Assembly (NCBI GenBank): GCA_002730315.1
Contig: PBZW01000066.1
Coordinates: 1 to 61,560 of the forward strand
Direction of reading: 5' to 3'
DNA length: 61,560 nt
Source: Fidelibacterota bacterium
GTDB lineage: Bacteria; Fidelibacterota; Marinisomatia; Marinisomatales; TCS55
Shown here: positions 1,719-55,948 of the stretch, one piece after another
Layout: each line of letters opens with the position of its first letter
How positions within the stretch are numbered: position 1 is the first letter of the stretch
The notes under the pieces: model-generated
What the model was told of the DNA's origin: nothing
Databases searched by the model: none
Seen by the model: the letters and a program-made list of their open reading frames with translations, nothing else
Position numbers and translations under genes: made by a program

Positions 1719-3719
1719 TTAATTCCGGTTGTGATATAACATATATTTCGCTGTCTCGAGGATACCCAATGTCATCCTCTCATAATTCTTTACCATTTCC
1801 TCGTTTCCAGAGAGGATATCTTCTGCAGGGTCGGGGCTGTTGAGATCATGAAATTCCATCCCGGAGCCATTGCGAAAGATCCGCAGATAGTAATCACTAT
1901 CTAATACACCATAACTGCTGGGGGAGATCTTTTTATTCACTACAAAGGCCATACCATTTTCATTTTTTAATACATCCCTTCCCAATGTCTTATTGGTATA
2001 ATCAATTCCGCTTAATCCGGCGATGGTCGGCATAAGGTCAGGCAAACCGCAAACAGTTTCGATCCTCCGATGATCCATTCCTAGCCCAGGCGCATAGATA
2101 ATGAATGGCACATTGTAAGAACGGAGACGAAGCGCATAGTCATCCGCAGGCATATGCTCCGCTTGGGGATCAGCGTTGCCGTGATCCCCAAACAGAACAA
2201 AGATCGTATTTTTAAAATAGTCAGCTGTATTCGCCATTTCCATAAATCTGCCGATAGAATGATCCAGGAAACGCATGGCGTTGTATTGGTCGAGTGAATT
2301 AAAACCCGCTTTCTGCAATACCTGTTCATCTTGATTCTTAATAATGAAACCGGCGTTATCCTCCGGTATGGAGTAGGGACGATGATTCGCAGCAGTTTGC
2401 ACAATAGCAAAAAATGGCTTTTCACTGTCTCTTTTTGAAAACAGGTCATGTGCCTCGCGCAGCAAATCCAGGTCAGAGATACCCCACACATCCACCCGCG
2501 GTCGGTTAAAATCACCCAATTCCAGCAGTTCCATATCCTTCAGGTTATACGTGATCAAGCTGCGGATATTCGCCCAGCTGGCGCTGCCTCCGATCAGGTA
2601 ATATTTATCATGATCTACAAATTCTGAAATAATGCTGTACTGATCGCGGATGAGAGGATTCCGTGAGGATGTTTTTGTTCGTGCCACATCCGGGATGCCG
2701 GTGACCATGGTAAACACTGATCTGGATGTACTAACCCACGGCACATAGAAATTGGGAAAAAATAATCCATTTTTAGCTAATTGATCCAAAGTGGGTGTTG
2801 TATCAAATGGGTTCCCCATCAATCTCATGCGGTTGAGCCCCACAGATTCCATGAAAATGATTACAATATTGGGGGGTGGTTCAATTTTTTTATCAGGAAT
2901 AATTTCCCTGGTGAAATTCATATTATCCTGGTCCGGTTCAGCCACCCCAAGCCAATTCGAAATCGTTGGATAATATTCCCTCACCTTTTCAATATCAAAA
3001 TCGGCTTCACTGAAATTTGAGGTATCATAAAAATACAAAACCGGGTTCAAGGCCAGTGCTGAAACAAAAGGGTCCCGACTAAAAAAAGCGTCGCTCCAAA
3101 ACAAGGCATATTGAGCAAACGTCCCCCACAAACTAAATAAGTAGATTGTACCGCCAACTATAACGCCAACTACTTTATGGGACGTATTCCTGTATTTGGG
3201 AGTTTTGGCAACTGTGGCGGCCACAAGACCATCATGGAGTTTGATCCAGGTAAAGCAGAGAAGTGCCAGGATGGATAAGAACCATACAACCGGGTAACTC
3301 TCCCAGACCATTTGAGCGGAGATAGTCGGATTTTCCAGAAGGATTAAGGCTGTGATATCCACCCGTTGCTGAAGGTATGCATAGTGGCCAAAATCAGCAG
3401 TATAAAATAATACAGCCCCTATGATCAAAATCCCGTAAATCCATTTTCCAACAGTGCGAGTTCTGTGTGAGCGACCCATATTCAAGACTGGAATCATAGT
3501 CAATACAAGCAATGGCAATGAGATTAAAATAGCCAGGCGCAAGTCAAAGCGGACGCCCATCCAGAAAGCACGAGTCAGGTCAGATGCGCTAACATCAGCG
3601 ACCGGATCATTGAACGTATAAAAGAAAACGATTCGGAATAGAATAAAAAAGAGCCACGATAAGCTTACTGCTCCCAGCAGGTAGCGCAGCCGCCGGGAAC
3701 GCATAAAGGAAAAATTCAT
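1719..3719 (-). CDS. LTA synthase family / phosphoglycerol transferase-type membrane sulfatase
   Basis: N-terminal TM helices, then sulfatase fold: PNIVIIFMESVGLNRM, FYVPWVSTSRSVFTMVTG, FVLFGDHGNADPQ. Confidence 0.88.
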   Translation of the reverse strand: MNFSFMRSRRLRYLLGAVSLSWLFFILFRIVFFYTFNDPVADVSASDLTRAFWMGVRFDLRLAILISLPLLVLTMIPVLNMGRSHRTRTVGKWIYGILIIGAVLFYTADFGHYAYLQQRVDITALILLENPTISAQMVWESYPVVWFLSILALLCFTWIKLHDGLVAATVAKTPKYRNTSHKVVGVIVGGTIYLFSLWGTFAQYALFWSDAFFSRDPFVSALALNPVLYFYDTSNFSEADFDIEKVREYYPTISNWLGVAEPDQDNMNFTREIIPDKKIEPPPNIVIIFMESVGLNRMRLMGNPFDTTPTLDQLAKNGLFFPNFYVPWVSTSRSVFTMVTGIPDVARTKTSSRNPLIRDQYSIISEFVDHDKYYLIGGSASWANIRSLITYNLKDMELLELGDFNRPRVDVWGISDLDLLREAHDLFSKRDSEKPFFAIVQTAANHRPYSIPEDNAGFIIKNQDEQVLQKAGFNSLDQYNAMRFLDHSIGRFMEMANTADYFKNTIFVLFGDHGNADPQAEHMPADDYALRLRSYNVPFIIYAPGLGMDHRRIETVCGLPDLMPTIAGLSGIDYTNKTLGRDVLKNENGMAFVVNKKISPSSYGVLDSDYYLRIFRNGSGMEFHDLNSPDPAEDILSGNEEMVKNYERMTLGILETAKYMLYHNRN

Positions 3720-3728
3720 CTAGACAGA

Positions 3729-4184
3729 CTAACCGAGCTCCTGCAGAATATCCATGGCATGGGTTTTAACATTAACTTTCTTGTATACTTTTTTGATTAT
3801 GCCATTTTCATCAATCACGTATGTATTACGAAAAATACCATTGTATTCACGACCCATGAATTTCTTTTTCCCCCATACACCATAGGCTTTCAACACATCA
3901 TTACCCTCATCGCATAACATAGGATATTCAAAATTCTGTTTATTACAAAATTTCTTTTGTTTCTGGGGTGAATCAGCGCTCATCCCAACAACAACTGCAT
4001 TTTTCATTTCAAATTGCTTGAGTTCATCCCGGAACCCTTTTCCTTCGACTGTTCATCCTGGGGTGCTAGCTTTTGGGAAAAACCATAAAACGACTTTTTG
4101 TCCTTTCAAACCGGACAGGGAAACTTCATTCCCATCTTGATCAGGCAATGTAAAATCTGGTGCCTTGCTTCCTTCTTCTAACAT
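3729..4184 (-). CDS. Peroxiredoxin (BCP/PrxQ-like), probable selenoprotein with in-frame UGA at 4053-4055 read as Sec44
   Basis: One frame from ATG 4184: [43 protein letters not shown][UGA][46 protein letters not shown]...; UGA sits exactly where the family has Cys in TPGCT. The ORF track shows only 3729..4007. Confidence 0.88.
4021..4050 (-). promoter_or_regulatory. Candidate bacterial SECIS-like hairpin downstream of the UGA
   Basis: On the minus strand, GGAA-AAGGG-UUCC (4043..4031) begins 10 nt after the UGA with a G-rich loop; possible lower pairing AGU/ACU. Judged by eye only. Confidence 0.4.
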
Positions 4185-4193
4185 AAGTACTCC

Positions 4194-4652
4194 TTAATCT
4201 ATAGTTGACCATCTCAATCGGTCATCATTTTTTAGAACCATTTCATTCACAACTTGAATACCCTGTTTTTGTCCTCTCCATACCAGATGATCCAACGTCT
4301 CTTCAATCGTGACCCATTTGTATTCGCAATGCTCGTCTGACAAGGTTATTTGATCTGAATCTACTTCAATTCCAAAAACGGGGACAAGGTTGATACGGTC
4401 ACCATGGGCCTCATAAAAACGGCTCACATGATCAGCCACAAACATGTGCTTCGGTTTAAGGCCTGTTTCCTCCAGCAATTCCCGCTTGGCTGCTTTCGGG
4501 GCAGATTCACCTGCTTCTATCTTGCCGGCCACGCCTTGCCATAAATGTTCGTAACGTTTTGTTTTCGCTCGTTTCAAGATTAAATACAATAAGCCATCAT
4601 CCGTTTTTCTAAACACATATGCATCTACAACTCGAACTACAATATTCGACAT
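4194..4652 (-). CDS. NUDIX hydrolase
   Basis: Nudix box: GKIEAGESAPKAAKRELLEETGL. Confidence 0.93.
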   Translation of the reverse strand: MSNIVVRVVDAYVFRKTDDGLLYLILKRAKTKRYEHLWQGVAGKIEAGESAPKAAKRELLEETGLKPKHMFVADHVSRFYEAHGDRINLVPVFGIEVDSDQITLSDEHCEYKWVTIEETLDHLVWRGQKQGIQVVNEMVLKNDDRLRWSTID

Positions 4653-15850: not shown

Positions 15851-16753
15851 CTATTTGATCAGTAAAACCTTTTCTGTCTGAACATTATTTCCACTTACCA
15901 GCTGTATAAAGTACACCCCGCTTGGTTGGGTCGATGCATTCCAAGTGACTTCATGCTCACCGCTCATCAGTTTACTGTTTACCAGCGTTTCCACCAACTG
16001 ACCGTTTATATCATAAATATGTAGAGACGTGACATACTGGGTCTCCAATGAGAATCGTATCGTTGTCGTGGGGTTGAATGGATTGGGATAGGCCGAGTAT
16101 AACATGATTTTTTCAGGGATCAGCGGTTCATCTTCCACCTCCACTTGCGGCAAAACAACGCCAGTCAATGCAATCGTACCATTGGAAATACTGATAATTC
16201 CAGGCGGAATTCCAGCTTGTAGCGCGCCCACATCAAAACTGCCGCTTAATGAATCAGGATATGTGATGTGATCAATCGAAACATTGCCGGTAATTCCCAG
16301 ATATGACTCATCTAAAATTATTGATAAAAGGGATCCCAGGAGGTCCTCAATAAATGTCGAATCGAAATCCAGAGAATCAGGAAGCAAGTCAGTGAATTGA
16401 CTGAAAAAGGAGGTGTCAACTTCCGGGAAAAAACCAAAAATGATATTGGGGTTCAACAGGTCATTGGGCGGTAGGGACCAATTGCCGGCTGCAAAGGATG
16501 GATTATCATCCTGCATATAAATGAAAAGTACAGACATTGTTGTGGTATCAATGGTCTGAATAGCAGATAATAATAAAGTTGAAGTTGAATCACCATCGAC
16601 AGACGCTGCGCTGGCACCGCCAAACGTGGAATCGCTCAAATCAGCTTGGAAAGTGCCATTTTCAGTTCCTGAATAATCAAAACTGATCGATCCTACATAG
16701 ATGCTTTGTCCGCAACAGAGTGATATGAGAAATATAAATAATTTTTGCATCAA
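15851..16753 (-). CDS. Secreted protein with T9SS type A-like C-terminal sorting domain
   Basis: C-terminus AYPNPFNPTTTIRFSLETQYVTSLHIYDINGQLVETLVNSKLMSGEHEVTWNASTQPSGVYFIQLVSGNNVQTEKVLLIK. Confidence 0.88.
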   Translation of the reverse strand: MMQKLFIFLISLCCGQSIYVGSISFDYSGTENGTFQADLSDSTFGGASAASVDGDSTSTLLLSAIQTIDTTTMSVLFIYMQDDNPSFAAGNWSLPPNDLLNPNIIFGFFPEVDTSFFSQFTDLLPDSLDFDSTFIEDLLGSLLSIILDESYLGITGNVSIDHITYPDSLSGSFDVGALQAGIPPGIISISNGTIALTGVVLPQVEVEDEPLIPEKIMLYSAYPNPFNPTTTIRFSLETQYVTSLHIYDINGQLVETLVNSKLMSGEHEVTWNASTQPSGVYFIQLVSGNNVQTEKVLLIK

Positions 16754-48248: not shown

Positions 48249-49658
48249 TCAGTTCTTTTCAAGAATCCCTACAGTCTCAATATGGGGGGTGTGGGGGAAC
48301 ATATCCACCATGGTCAACTTTTTCAGACCATAGCCATTTTCCATCAACAGGGCCACATCTCTGGATTGGGTGGTAGGATTGCAGGATACGTAGACCAGTC
48401 TTTCCGCCCCAAATTCAGGTAGTGCCTTCAACATGTCTTTGTGTATACCGGCCCGTGGAGGATCGATCACGATCACATCCGGAACAGGAAGGTCTTTATG
48501 GGTTTTCTCTTTCTTGAAGAAGAAGTCCAAATTTGCTTTATGGAAACGCACATTGGTGATAATATTGGTCATGGCGTTTCGTGTGGCATCTTCCACTGCC
48601 GACGTTATGAGTTCAAACCCGTGGACCTCTTTCGCATTTTGTGCCAGAAAAAGTGAGATAGAGCCCGTCCCGCAGTAGAGATCAAATACTATTTCTTCAC
48701 CTGTTATTTCGACACCTACTAGTACAGTTTGATACAGTTTTTCAGCTTGAATAGAATTTGTCTGAAAAAAGGAATTGGCGGATATCTCAAAAGTAAGTTT
48801 TCCCATCTTTTCAGTTATAGTGGGCGAACCATGGAGGAGAGTTTCAAATTCACCAAATGCTATATCCGCTTTCCGGGTGTTGATATTATTGATGACGGAA
48901 GTGACCTGGGGAAATGTTTCATGGATATGATCAGCCAGTGGTTGGATCAATTCAGGATTCTCATAACTGGTAACCAGGTTCACCATAATATCACCTGTAT
49001 TATGTCCAAAGCGCATAACCAAGTGCCGTAGAAAACCATTATGCGTTTTTACATCATAAGGCTTGAGTTTTAATTCCCGCGCTTTGGTTTTTACTGCATT
49101 TAATATTTCATTCCCAAATTCTGGCTGGATATGGCAATTGTTGATATCCAATATTTTATCATATCGACGGGGAATGTGAAGCCCTAATGCAAAACTTCTT
49201 TCTGTATCATCGCCCTCATCAGGTAATGTCCAGCGGCGGTTTGAGAAAGAAAACTCCATTTTATTCCGGTAGTGGAATTGTTGATCAGCCGGGATCACTT
49301 CATCTATGGTAAAATCTGAAATTCCTGCTTGGCGCCTGAAAAGGGCCTCAACCTGCTGTTTTTTCTGGTTCACCTGTTCTGCATAATCCAATTGCTGAAA
49401 GGTACAGCCGCCGCAATAGGCAAAATGTTCGCATGGAGCACTTACAATATGAGGAGACTCTTCCAATACTTCCAAGGGGCGTGCTTCGGCATATCCCTTT
49501 TTCTTGCGATAGATGAGAGCATTGACCTTTTGACCGGGAATGGAATTTTTAACAAAGATAACATATCCATCTACCTTGGCCACGCCACGTCCTCCATAGG
49601 CAAGGGAATCGATGGTCAATTCAATTTCTTGACCTTTTTGAATGGTTGTTTCAGGCAT
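48249..49658 (-). CDS. 23S rRNA (uracil-5-)-methyltransferase RumA/RlmD-like, TRAM domain
   Basis: TRAM N-terminus, CEHFAYCGGCTFQQLDYAEQ, VFDLYCGTGSISLFLA, VIDPPRAGIHKDML, VYVSCNPTTQSRDVALL. Confidence 0.94.
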   Translation of the reverse strand: MPETTIQKGQEIELTIDSLAYGGRGVAKVDGYVIFVKNSIPGQKVNALIYRKKKGYAEARPLEVLEESPHIVSAPCEHFAYCGGCTFQQLDYAEQVNQKKQQVEALFRRQAGISDFTIDEVIPADQQFHYRNKMEFSFSNRRWTLPDEGDDTERSFALGLHIPRRYDKILDINNCHIQPEFGNEILNAVKTKARELKLKPYDVKTHNGFLRHLVMRFGHNTGDIMVNLVTSYENPELIQPLADHIHETFPQVTSVINNINTRKADIAFGEFETLLHGSPTITEKMGKLTFEISANSFFQTNSIQAEKLYQTVLVGVEITGEEIVFDLYCGTGSISLFLAQNAKEVHGFELITSAVEDATRNAMTNIITNVRFHKANLDFFFKKEKTHKDLPVPDVIVIDPPRAGIHKDMLKALPEFGAERLVYVSCNPTTQSRDVALLMENGYGLKKLTMVDMFPHTPHIETVGILEKN

Positions 49659-53939: not shown

Positions 53940-54959
53940 ATGTCAGTACAAGTTAATATAGGAATTGTTGGTTTCGGCCGTATCGGCCGCAATTTATTGC
54001 GCCTTGGCTATGACGATCCGCGTTTCAATTTTGTCGGGATCAGCGACTTGGCTGAACCGGAAGCTCTCTTTTATTTACTGGGGCATGATACTGTATACGG
54101 ACCTATAGAAACTGAAACAGTACTCAAAGACAATTACATTCATTTCGGTCACCAGAAAGTACGCATACTCCCTGGATCAGGACCCGGTTCGTTGCCTTGG
54201 GATGCCCTTGGTGCTGATATTATCATTGACTGCACCGGCCGTATCTGGCCTCGCACTGATTTGGAAAAATACCTGGATGCCGGGGCAAAACGGGTTATAG
54301 TCACCAAACCGCCTGAAGATCCTGTAGATCGTATTGTTGTCATGGGCTTGAATGATAATGATATATCCACTGATGATAAAATCGTTTCCCCTTCTTCATC
54401 TACGACGCAGGTATTAGCTTTGATGCTGGATATCCTAGATAATCAGTATGGACTGGATAAGGCCATGATGACCTCCGTTCATGCTTATACGTCCGATCAA
54501 CCTCTGGCTGACAGTGTGCGGTCAGATCTGCGCCGCAGCCGATCTGCAGTGGAAAATATTATACCCAACCAGACTCAGTCACCCCAATTAGTAGAAACTA
54601 TATTGCCCCACCTCAAAGGAAAAATTGCAGGTATCGCTTTTAACGTTCCTATCCCTGACGGTTCCTGCGTGGACCTTACTACTCAATTACAAACAACACC
54701 CTCTGTGGAAGATGTGAATGCATTAATGAAAGATGTCTCTGAAAATTCCATGTCTGCCATCATCGGTTATACAGATGACCCCATTGTATCCAGCGATGTT
54801 GTAGGTGACAGCCATTCCATGATTTTTGATGCCAGGGCCACTATGATTGCTGCAGGTAAATTACTGAAGACTGTCTGCTGGTATGATGACGGTTATGGAT
54901 ATTCGCAGCGTATTCTGGAACTCACGAAAGCGTACTGCGACTTGGAAGAAGTCTCATGA
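53940..54959 (+). CDS. Glyceraldehyde-3-phosphate dehydrogenase paralog lacking the catalytic Cys
   Basis: GAPDH fold NIGIVGFGRIGRNLLRLGYDDPRF...; aligned active site KIVSPSSSTTQV versus KIVSNASCTTNC in the downstream paralog. Confidence 0.88.
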   Translation: MSVQVNIGIVGFGRIGRNLLRLGYDDPRFNFVGISDLAEPEALFYLLGHDTVYGPIETETVLKDNYIHFGHQKVRILPGSGPGSLPWDALGADIIIDCTGRIWPRTDLEKYLDAGAKRVIVTKPPEDPVDRIVVMGLNDNDISTDDKIVSPSSSTTQVLALMLDILDNQYGLDKAMMTSVHAYTSDQPLADSVRSDLRRSRSAVENIIPNQTQSPQLVETILPHLKGKIAGIAFNVPIPDGSCVDLTTQLQTTPSVEDVNALMKDVSENSMSAIIGYTDDPIVSSDVVGDSHSMIFDARATMIAAGKLLKTVCWYDDGYGYSQRILELTKAYCDLEEVS

Positions 54960-55948
54960 GAATTGGCATAAATGGCTTTGGCCGCATCGGCCGCTCGGTA
55001 TTTAGGATTTTAAATAACCAACAGGATTTTGCTGTTGTGGCCATCAATGACCTTGCTGATGATGATGCCCTGGCTTATTTGTTGAAATACGATACTGTCA
55101 TGGGACCCTTAAAAGATGAAGTGAGTGTTAATAATGGAATTTTAAGTACAACCAATCACAAAGTTAAAATGCTTAACGAGCGTGATCCAGCCGCTCTGCC
55201 CTGGACTGAATTAGGTGTTGATGTTGTCATTGAAGCCACCGGTGTTTTCAGGACCCGTGAGCAGCTGCAAGCTCATTTAGATGCTGGCACAGGACATGTT
55301 ATTCTTACAGTACCGGCCAAGGATGAAATTGATTATACTGTCGTCATTGGTGTAAATGAAGATGGTCTTAAACCTGACCATAAAATTGTTTCAAATGCAT
55401 CCTGTACAACGAACTGTTTAGCCCCTATGGCAAAAGTCCTAAATGATGCTTTCGGTATTGAATATGGTGTTATAAATACAATCCATGCCTATACAAATGA
55501 TCAAAGATTAGCTGACGTTCCTCACTCGGACTGGCGGCGCAGCAGGGCTGCCGCAGAAAACATTATACCCACAACAACTGGGGCTGCCAGAGCTGTCGGA
55601 GTTGTTTTACCAGAACTCAAGGGTAAATTAGATGGCATTGCCATGCGTGTGCCTGTCCCCGATGGCTCAATCGTTGACTTGAATGTGGAATTAAATACTG
55701 ATGTAAGCGCTGACGATATCCGCCAAGCAGTCAAAGAAGCAAGCGCAACTGACCGCCTGAATTCCATCCTGCAATACGAAGATACGCCCATTGTTTCTTC
55801 AGATATTATCGGCAACCCTCATTCATCCATTTTTGATGCACCGTTTACGTCTGTTATCAATAAACGATTTGTAAAAACACTGAACTGGTATGATAATGAG
55901 TGGGGTTATTCCAACCGAGTGGTAGACTTAATAAAATTATTGGCATAA
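54956..55948 (+). CDS. gap: Type I glyceraldehyde-3-phosphate dehydrogenase
   Basis: RIGINGFGRIGRSVFRIL, IVSNASCTTNCLAPMAKVL, WYDNEWGYSNRVVDLI. Confidence 0.97.
   Translation: MRIGINGFGRIGRSVFRILNNQQDFAVVAINDLADDDALAYLLKYDTVMGPLKDEVSVNNGILSTTNHKVKMLNERDPAALPWTELGVDVVIEATGVFRTREQLQAHLDAGTGHVILTVPAKDEIDYTVVIGVNEDGLKPDHKIVSNASCTTNCLAPMAKVLNDAFGIEYGVINTIHAYTNDQRLADVPHSDWRRSRAAAENIIPTTTGAARAVGVVLPELKGKLDGIAMRVPVPDGSIVDLNVELNTDVSADDIRQAVKEASATDRLNSILQYEDTPIVSSDIIGNPHSSIFDAPFTSVINKRFVKTLNWYDNEWGYSNRVVDLIKLLA

Follow-up and report, generated by a model that had tools for sequence, protein, structure and literature searches.

Here, we describe a gene that very probably encodes a complete, selenocysteine-containing peroxiredoxin of the PrxQ/BCP type (Prx), in which an in-frame UGA would be read as selenocysteine (Sec). 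It lies in a 61,560-nucleotide stretch of DNA from a Fidelibacterota bacterium (contig PBZW01000066.1, positions 1 to 61,560), which we refer to as the window. Our high confidence covers the claim that this is a Sec peroxiredoxin; the step that resolves its oxidised form lies outside it.

The peroxiredoxin gene and its in-frame UGA

The frame runs on the minus strand from ATG 4184 to a TAG at 3731-3729, and its single in-frame UGA is codon 44 (4055-4053), translated in the context PKASTPG-U-TVEGKG (Table 1). The standard list of open reading frames contains just a 3' piece of 92 residues (3729..4007). As the first-pass annotation had proposed, the same frame continues upstream of this piece to ATG 4184, a lone UGA stands where the peroxidatic Cys is expected, and the family match is clean on both sides of it; its warning that the gene would be misannotated as truncated is borne out by the ORF list. 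The AAGGAG sequence is located 5 nt upstream of ATG 4184, and no comparable ribosome-binding site was found before ATG 4007.

Table 1. Features of the peroxiredoxin locus in the window
Feature	Position	Strand	Basis
Complete predicted selenoprotein gene, 151-aa PrxQ/BCP-type peroxiredoxin with Sec44	3729..4184	-	sequence, translation, profiles
In-frame UGA for predicted Sec44, peroxidatic position (TPG-U-T)	4053..4055	-	sequence; orthologues (49/51 UGA, 2 Cys)
Codon for Lys49, where E. coli-type BCP has its alpha-2 resolving Cys (absent here)	4038..4040	-	
Codon for Cys80, a candidate resolving cysteine in alpha-3 that aligns with Cys84 of Xanthomonas campestris PrxQ	3945..3947	-	
Predicted bacterial SECIS hairpin (GGGUUC-CGGGAU-GAACUC), located 16-33 nt past the UGA	4020..4037	-	folding, covariation
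Shine-Dalgarno-like AAGGAG that overlaps the stop of the NUDIX gene upstream	4190..4195	-	
NUDIX hydrolase gene, upstream of Prx and adjacent to it in relatives	4194..4652	-	
Sulfatase-family protein gene, downstream of Prx and adjacent in some relatives	1719..3719	-	

The sulfatase-family gene starts 9 nt past the Prx stop, and the NUDIX and Prx genes are probably co-transcribed. The relatives of the NUDIX gene that carry names come mostly from metagenome-assembled genomes (MAGs) of Candidatus Marinimicrobia / Neomarinimicrobiota, now Fidelibacterota. In all seven of these named loci the NUDIX gene adjoins Prx, and in some of them a sulfatase gene then follows. Elsewhere in the window, two glyceraldehyde-3-phosphate dehydrogenase genes lie adjacent in tandem on the plus strand (53940-55948).

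The protein was assigned to its family with Cys placed at residue 44. In this form it matches AhpC-TSA over residues 5-132 (3.5e-40; 137 bits, cut-off 26) and the NCBIfam model for thioredoxin-dependent thiol peroxidase (NF006960/PRK09437) with 171 bits, above the cut-off of 140. Its AlphaFold model (pLDDT 96.6, pTM 0.91) finds BCP/PrxQ structures as its best PDB matches, with a TM score of 0.96 to a BCP chain. Moreover, the PrxQ/BCP motif P(K/A/R)(D/A)xTxG-C (PMC5302317) is present as PKASTPG-U, with Sec replacing Cys, and the active-site Arg119 is invariant in the alignment. Profile score, motif, arginine and fold thus place the protein in PrxQ/BCP. The PrxU family of NCBIfam (NF040737) belongs to the same superfamily, but the window protein scores 39.4 bits there against a cut-off of 270; it was therefore placed as a PrxQ/BCP-type Sec peroxiredoxin outside PrxU.

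If the UGA were a true stop created by nonsense mutation, the locus would be a pseudogene, or else two open reading frames with an internal restart at ATG 4007. Other open reading frames of the window do end in UGA, but the divergence of the gene argues against a stop here: compared with its nearest relative (L012), 19 of 24 changes N-terminal of the UGA and 22 of 35 changes C-terminal of it fall in third codon positions. This bias on both sides indicates that both halves are under purifying selection, and the N-terminal part thus also appears to be selected as protein. In addition, the restart codon lacks a ribosome-binding site, the C-terminal piece alone would be without an active site, and conservation of the UGA extends over the order and the class. 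We consider a true stop highly improbable and reject the pseudogene reading on the grounds of the purifying divergence and the conserved codon.

Conservation of the UGA and of the hairpin that follows it

We searched 61 genomes of the order and read 51 orthologues, including five divergent ones. The codon 44 column contains UGA in 49 and Cys in the remaining two (from genomes G048 and G060), with no other residue, and the UGA is kept in orthologues down to about 40% protein identity. The exchange between UGA and Cys that the first-pass annotation had suggested looking for is thus present, without unrelated residues. In one of the two Cys genomes, G060, neither SelB nor SelD nor tRNA-Sec gave a match above its cut-off, as expected if Cys remains where Sec decoding has been lost. 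The other, G048, still has all three, so its Cys is read as an ordinary Sec/Cys exchange.

The same column bears on the possibility that the codon is in truth UGC or UGU and the protein an ordinary Cys-PrxQ. UGA is one base away from both Cys codons and our source is a MAG, but 48 further orthologues, from genomes assembled separately, show UGA at this codon, and the closer ones share a covarying hairpin. A sequencing or assembly error is therefore exceedingly unlikely; error or chance at this codon is refuted by the 48 other orthologues.

In a phylum-wide sample, the UGA form is almost wholly confined to the class of the window's genome, and in the other classes almost every match lacks an in-frame stop and presumably carries Cys. 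Isolated TGA-bearing matches occur outside this main distribution: one in another class (G097:C48:29918-30355) and one (G159:C3:66086-66460) in a small-genome family otherwise without stops. A plasmid search with Prx returned only distant Cys-type BCPs, all less than 60% identical.

The relatives also contain a second, paralogous PrxQ, which keeps the alpha-2 Cys (TPGUTKEACG) and in some cases has a longer N-terminus. This paralogue alternates between Sec and Cys among genomes, with UGA in L084, L086, L087, L090, L091, L094, L095, L097 and L099, and Cys in L085, L088, L089, L092, L093, L096, L098 and L100. Its hairpin differs, being GCGGGUUCCGC in most UGA versions and degraded in the Cys versions.

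According to the passages on bacterial SECIS elements in PMC1088965, such an element is a hairpin just downstream of the UGA with a small apical loop that contains a G. The window gene has a hairpin of this kind, with its G-containing apical loop at 4031-4026. In an alignment of 39 genes, from which seven UGA genes without a hairpin in the same register were omitted (the five divergent ones, L072 and L073), 99.1% of the cells are paired and 21 cells are changed on both sides. Pair 18-31 is divided evenly between G-C and A-U (17 against 17), and pair 19-30 between U-A and C-G (34 against 4). Through these swaps, a silent GGG/GGA exchange in a Gly codon is tied to a Leu/Phe replacement. When the partners are slid by one base, pairing falls to 58-65%, and none of 500 shuffles matched the observed pairing or covariation score. 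These shuffle statistics are strong indications and not probabilities, because the shuffles leave the relatedness of the genes in.

Across 42 genes, the hairpin is more stable than in synonymous recodings of the same peptides (mean z about -3), and for the window gene's own hairpin the same comparison gives p = 0.01. The pairing is broken in both Cys versions (L065 and L078). Rfam gave no match at the hairpin and elsewhere only chance-level hits. In two UGA orthologues, L072 and L073 (from G041 and G053), the main hairpin is absent and CGCAGUUUGCG stands instead, which resembles the GUU-loop hairpin of the paralogue.

Selenocysteine machinery of the genome

A search for the Sec machinery, which the first-pass annotation had also advised, found the three protein genes expected in a bacterium that makes selenoproteins. 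SelA (456 aa) and SelB (620 aa), both over their curated cut-offs, are encoded by adjacent genes on contig C27, which we describe as an operon, and selD is located on C13 (L103, G000:C13:33985-34911), and is likewise interrupted by an in-frame UGA, in GSG-U-ACK. SelD is thus itself a predicted selenoprotein, and nearly all SelD genes of the relatives also have one TGA.

The fourth component, tRNA-Sec, was not found in the genome's own assembly, which is 73% complete and in which the best matches are ordinary tRNAs. Among 61 genomes (the window's own and 60 relatives), 48 have a tRNA-Sec over the family cut-off. In the closest congener (G005), the gene has a 2-oxoacid:ferredoxin oxidoreductase gene on one side and a SPOR/TPR gene pair on the other, and relatives of SPOR and TPR flank tRNA-Sec in all 12 other loci checked. 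The syntenic contig of the window's genome (C55) breaks off within the gene for the oxidoreductase, leaving about 220 bases to the place expected for the tRNA, and no counterpart of the second flank was found in this assembly. Since the contig ends before the conserved position, the absence is most simply explained if the tRNA-Sec gene falls in an assembly gap.

A UGA that is evidently read through would also be accounted for if this organism had reassigned UGA generally to one of the ordinary amino acids. However, long genes of the window end in UGA (for example at 16750-16752 and 48249-48251), the Sec machinery is present, and the Prx UGA swaps with Cys only. On these three grounds code reassignment was rejected, and we give it next to no probability. 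A scan of all in-frame UGAs with redox-like motifs suggested no second selenoprotein in the window.

The Sec reading of the first-pass annotation is thus supported by selA, selB and selD, by a column that holds only UGA and Cys, and by a covarying hairpin. For Sec insertion at this codon, the support comes close to the most that sequence alone could give. The sequence data strongly support a scheme in which SelB, with Sec-tRNA-Sec, would decode the Prx UGA with the help of the downstream hairpin.

The resolving step and its place among known peroxiredoxins

By analogy with the family, the selenolate of Sec44 would attack peroxides and become a selenenic acid. We think it probable that Cys80 resolves this acid, forming an intramolecular Sec44-Cys80 selenenylsulfide, and that thioredoxin then reduces it. 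U44 and Cys80 align without gaps with Cys48 and Cys84 of X. campestris PrxQ, an enzyme with C48S, C84S and LUss structures in the PDB, and in the AlphaFold model Cys80 is part of helix 73-83 (alpha-3). This places Cys80, by PDB titles and alignment, at the position of the second redox residue. The Sec-Cys route is for this reason the likelier one in the window protein.

Alternatively, the selenenic acid could be reduced directly by an external thiol, with no resolving Cys, as the first-pass annotation had suggested after seeing that the PrxQ resolving Cys five residues further on is replaced. That residue, the alpha-2 resolving Cys of E. coli-type BCP, is indeed absent, position 49 being Lys, and 1-Cys BCPs exist (PMC8945050). 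Moreover, of the 44 core UGA orthologues, Cys80 is present in 28, Cys91 alone in five and neither of them in 11, seven of the last being entirely Cys-free, so a resolving Cys is evidently dispensable for Sec enzymes in this family. However, a 1-Cys or 1-Sec enzyme would have no resolving Cys at either alpha-2 or alpha-3, and the window protein and its closest relatives retain Cys80 in helix alpha-3, at the place of Cys84 in X. campestris PrxQ. The proposed 1-Sec mechanism is thus weakened for this protein, where we regard it as possible and as the less probable route, and the Sec44-Cys80 selenenylsulfide is favoured with some confidence. Because Cys80 is lacking in 16 of the 44 core UGA orthologues, its resolving role does not appear to be a family-wide rule; orthologues without it would presumably use an external thiol instead.

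Several known proteins share parts of this arrangement. PrxQ of X. campestris (5iiz, 5iox, C48S, C84S) and of Xylella fastidiosa (3ixr) have the same spacing of 36 between the peroxidatic residue and the alpha-3 Cys, with a Foldseek probability of 1.00 and a TM score of about 0.9, but they carry a peroxidatic Cys in place of Sec and are about 33% identical to the window protein. E. coli-type BCP (CP-x4-CR) belongs to the same PrxQ/BCP family and has a peroxidatic Cys and an alpha-2 resolving Cys, where the window protein has Sec44 and Lys49. In Deinococcus, too, there are BCPs with a pair of Cys separated by about 38 residues (PMC8945050).

That Sec-containing peroxiredoxins were already known, as the first-pass annotation had stated, is borne out by an established family, COG1225 (Bcp, TxxU), as treated in the relevant passages of PMC1088965, PMC9312934 (Table 1) and PMC13188914. 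The experimentally supported entry in PMC9312934 refers to work on Eubacterium acidaminophilum published in 2001, and the 2005 selenoproteome of the Sargasso Sea, in which these proteins are abundant, counted 43 Sec-containing peroxiredoxin genes (PMC1088965). In these passages the family shares with the window protein the fold family, the TPGU site, a bSECIS-like hairpin with a loop G downstream of the UGA, and a common occurrence in marine metagenomes. We found no difference in kind there; those passages do not treat a Marinimicrobia host or the arrangement with Cys80 in alpha-3. A search of the open literature, which was not exhaustive, found no paper on Marinimicrobia selenoproteins in particular. 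The window gene is a solid further example of the Sec peroxiredoxins already known and not a new kind.

Ordinary annotation would report this gene as truncated, and likewise its orthologues across an order of a marine phylum that is mostly uncultured. Within Marinimicrobia, Sec-PrxQ occurs widely in one class. The natural enzymes, some with a resolving Cys and others lacking one, provide a series in which the contribution of selenium to peroxide reduction could be studied. It is tempting to speculate, and we do so tentatively, that the alpha-3 resolving Cys has been repeatedly lost or gained in the Sec-PrxQ family while Sec stayed fixed, and that Sec may make this Cys dispensable. If this is true, the family would form a natural series of Sec with Cys80, Sec with Cys91, Sec alone and Cys alone, which would be suited to testing why Sec is kept in peroxiredoxins.
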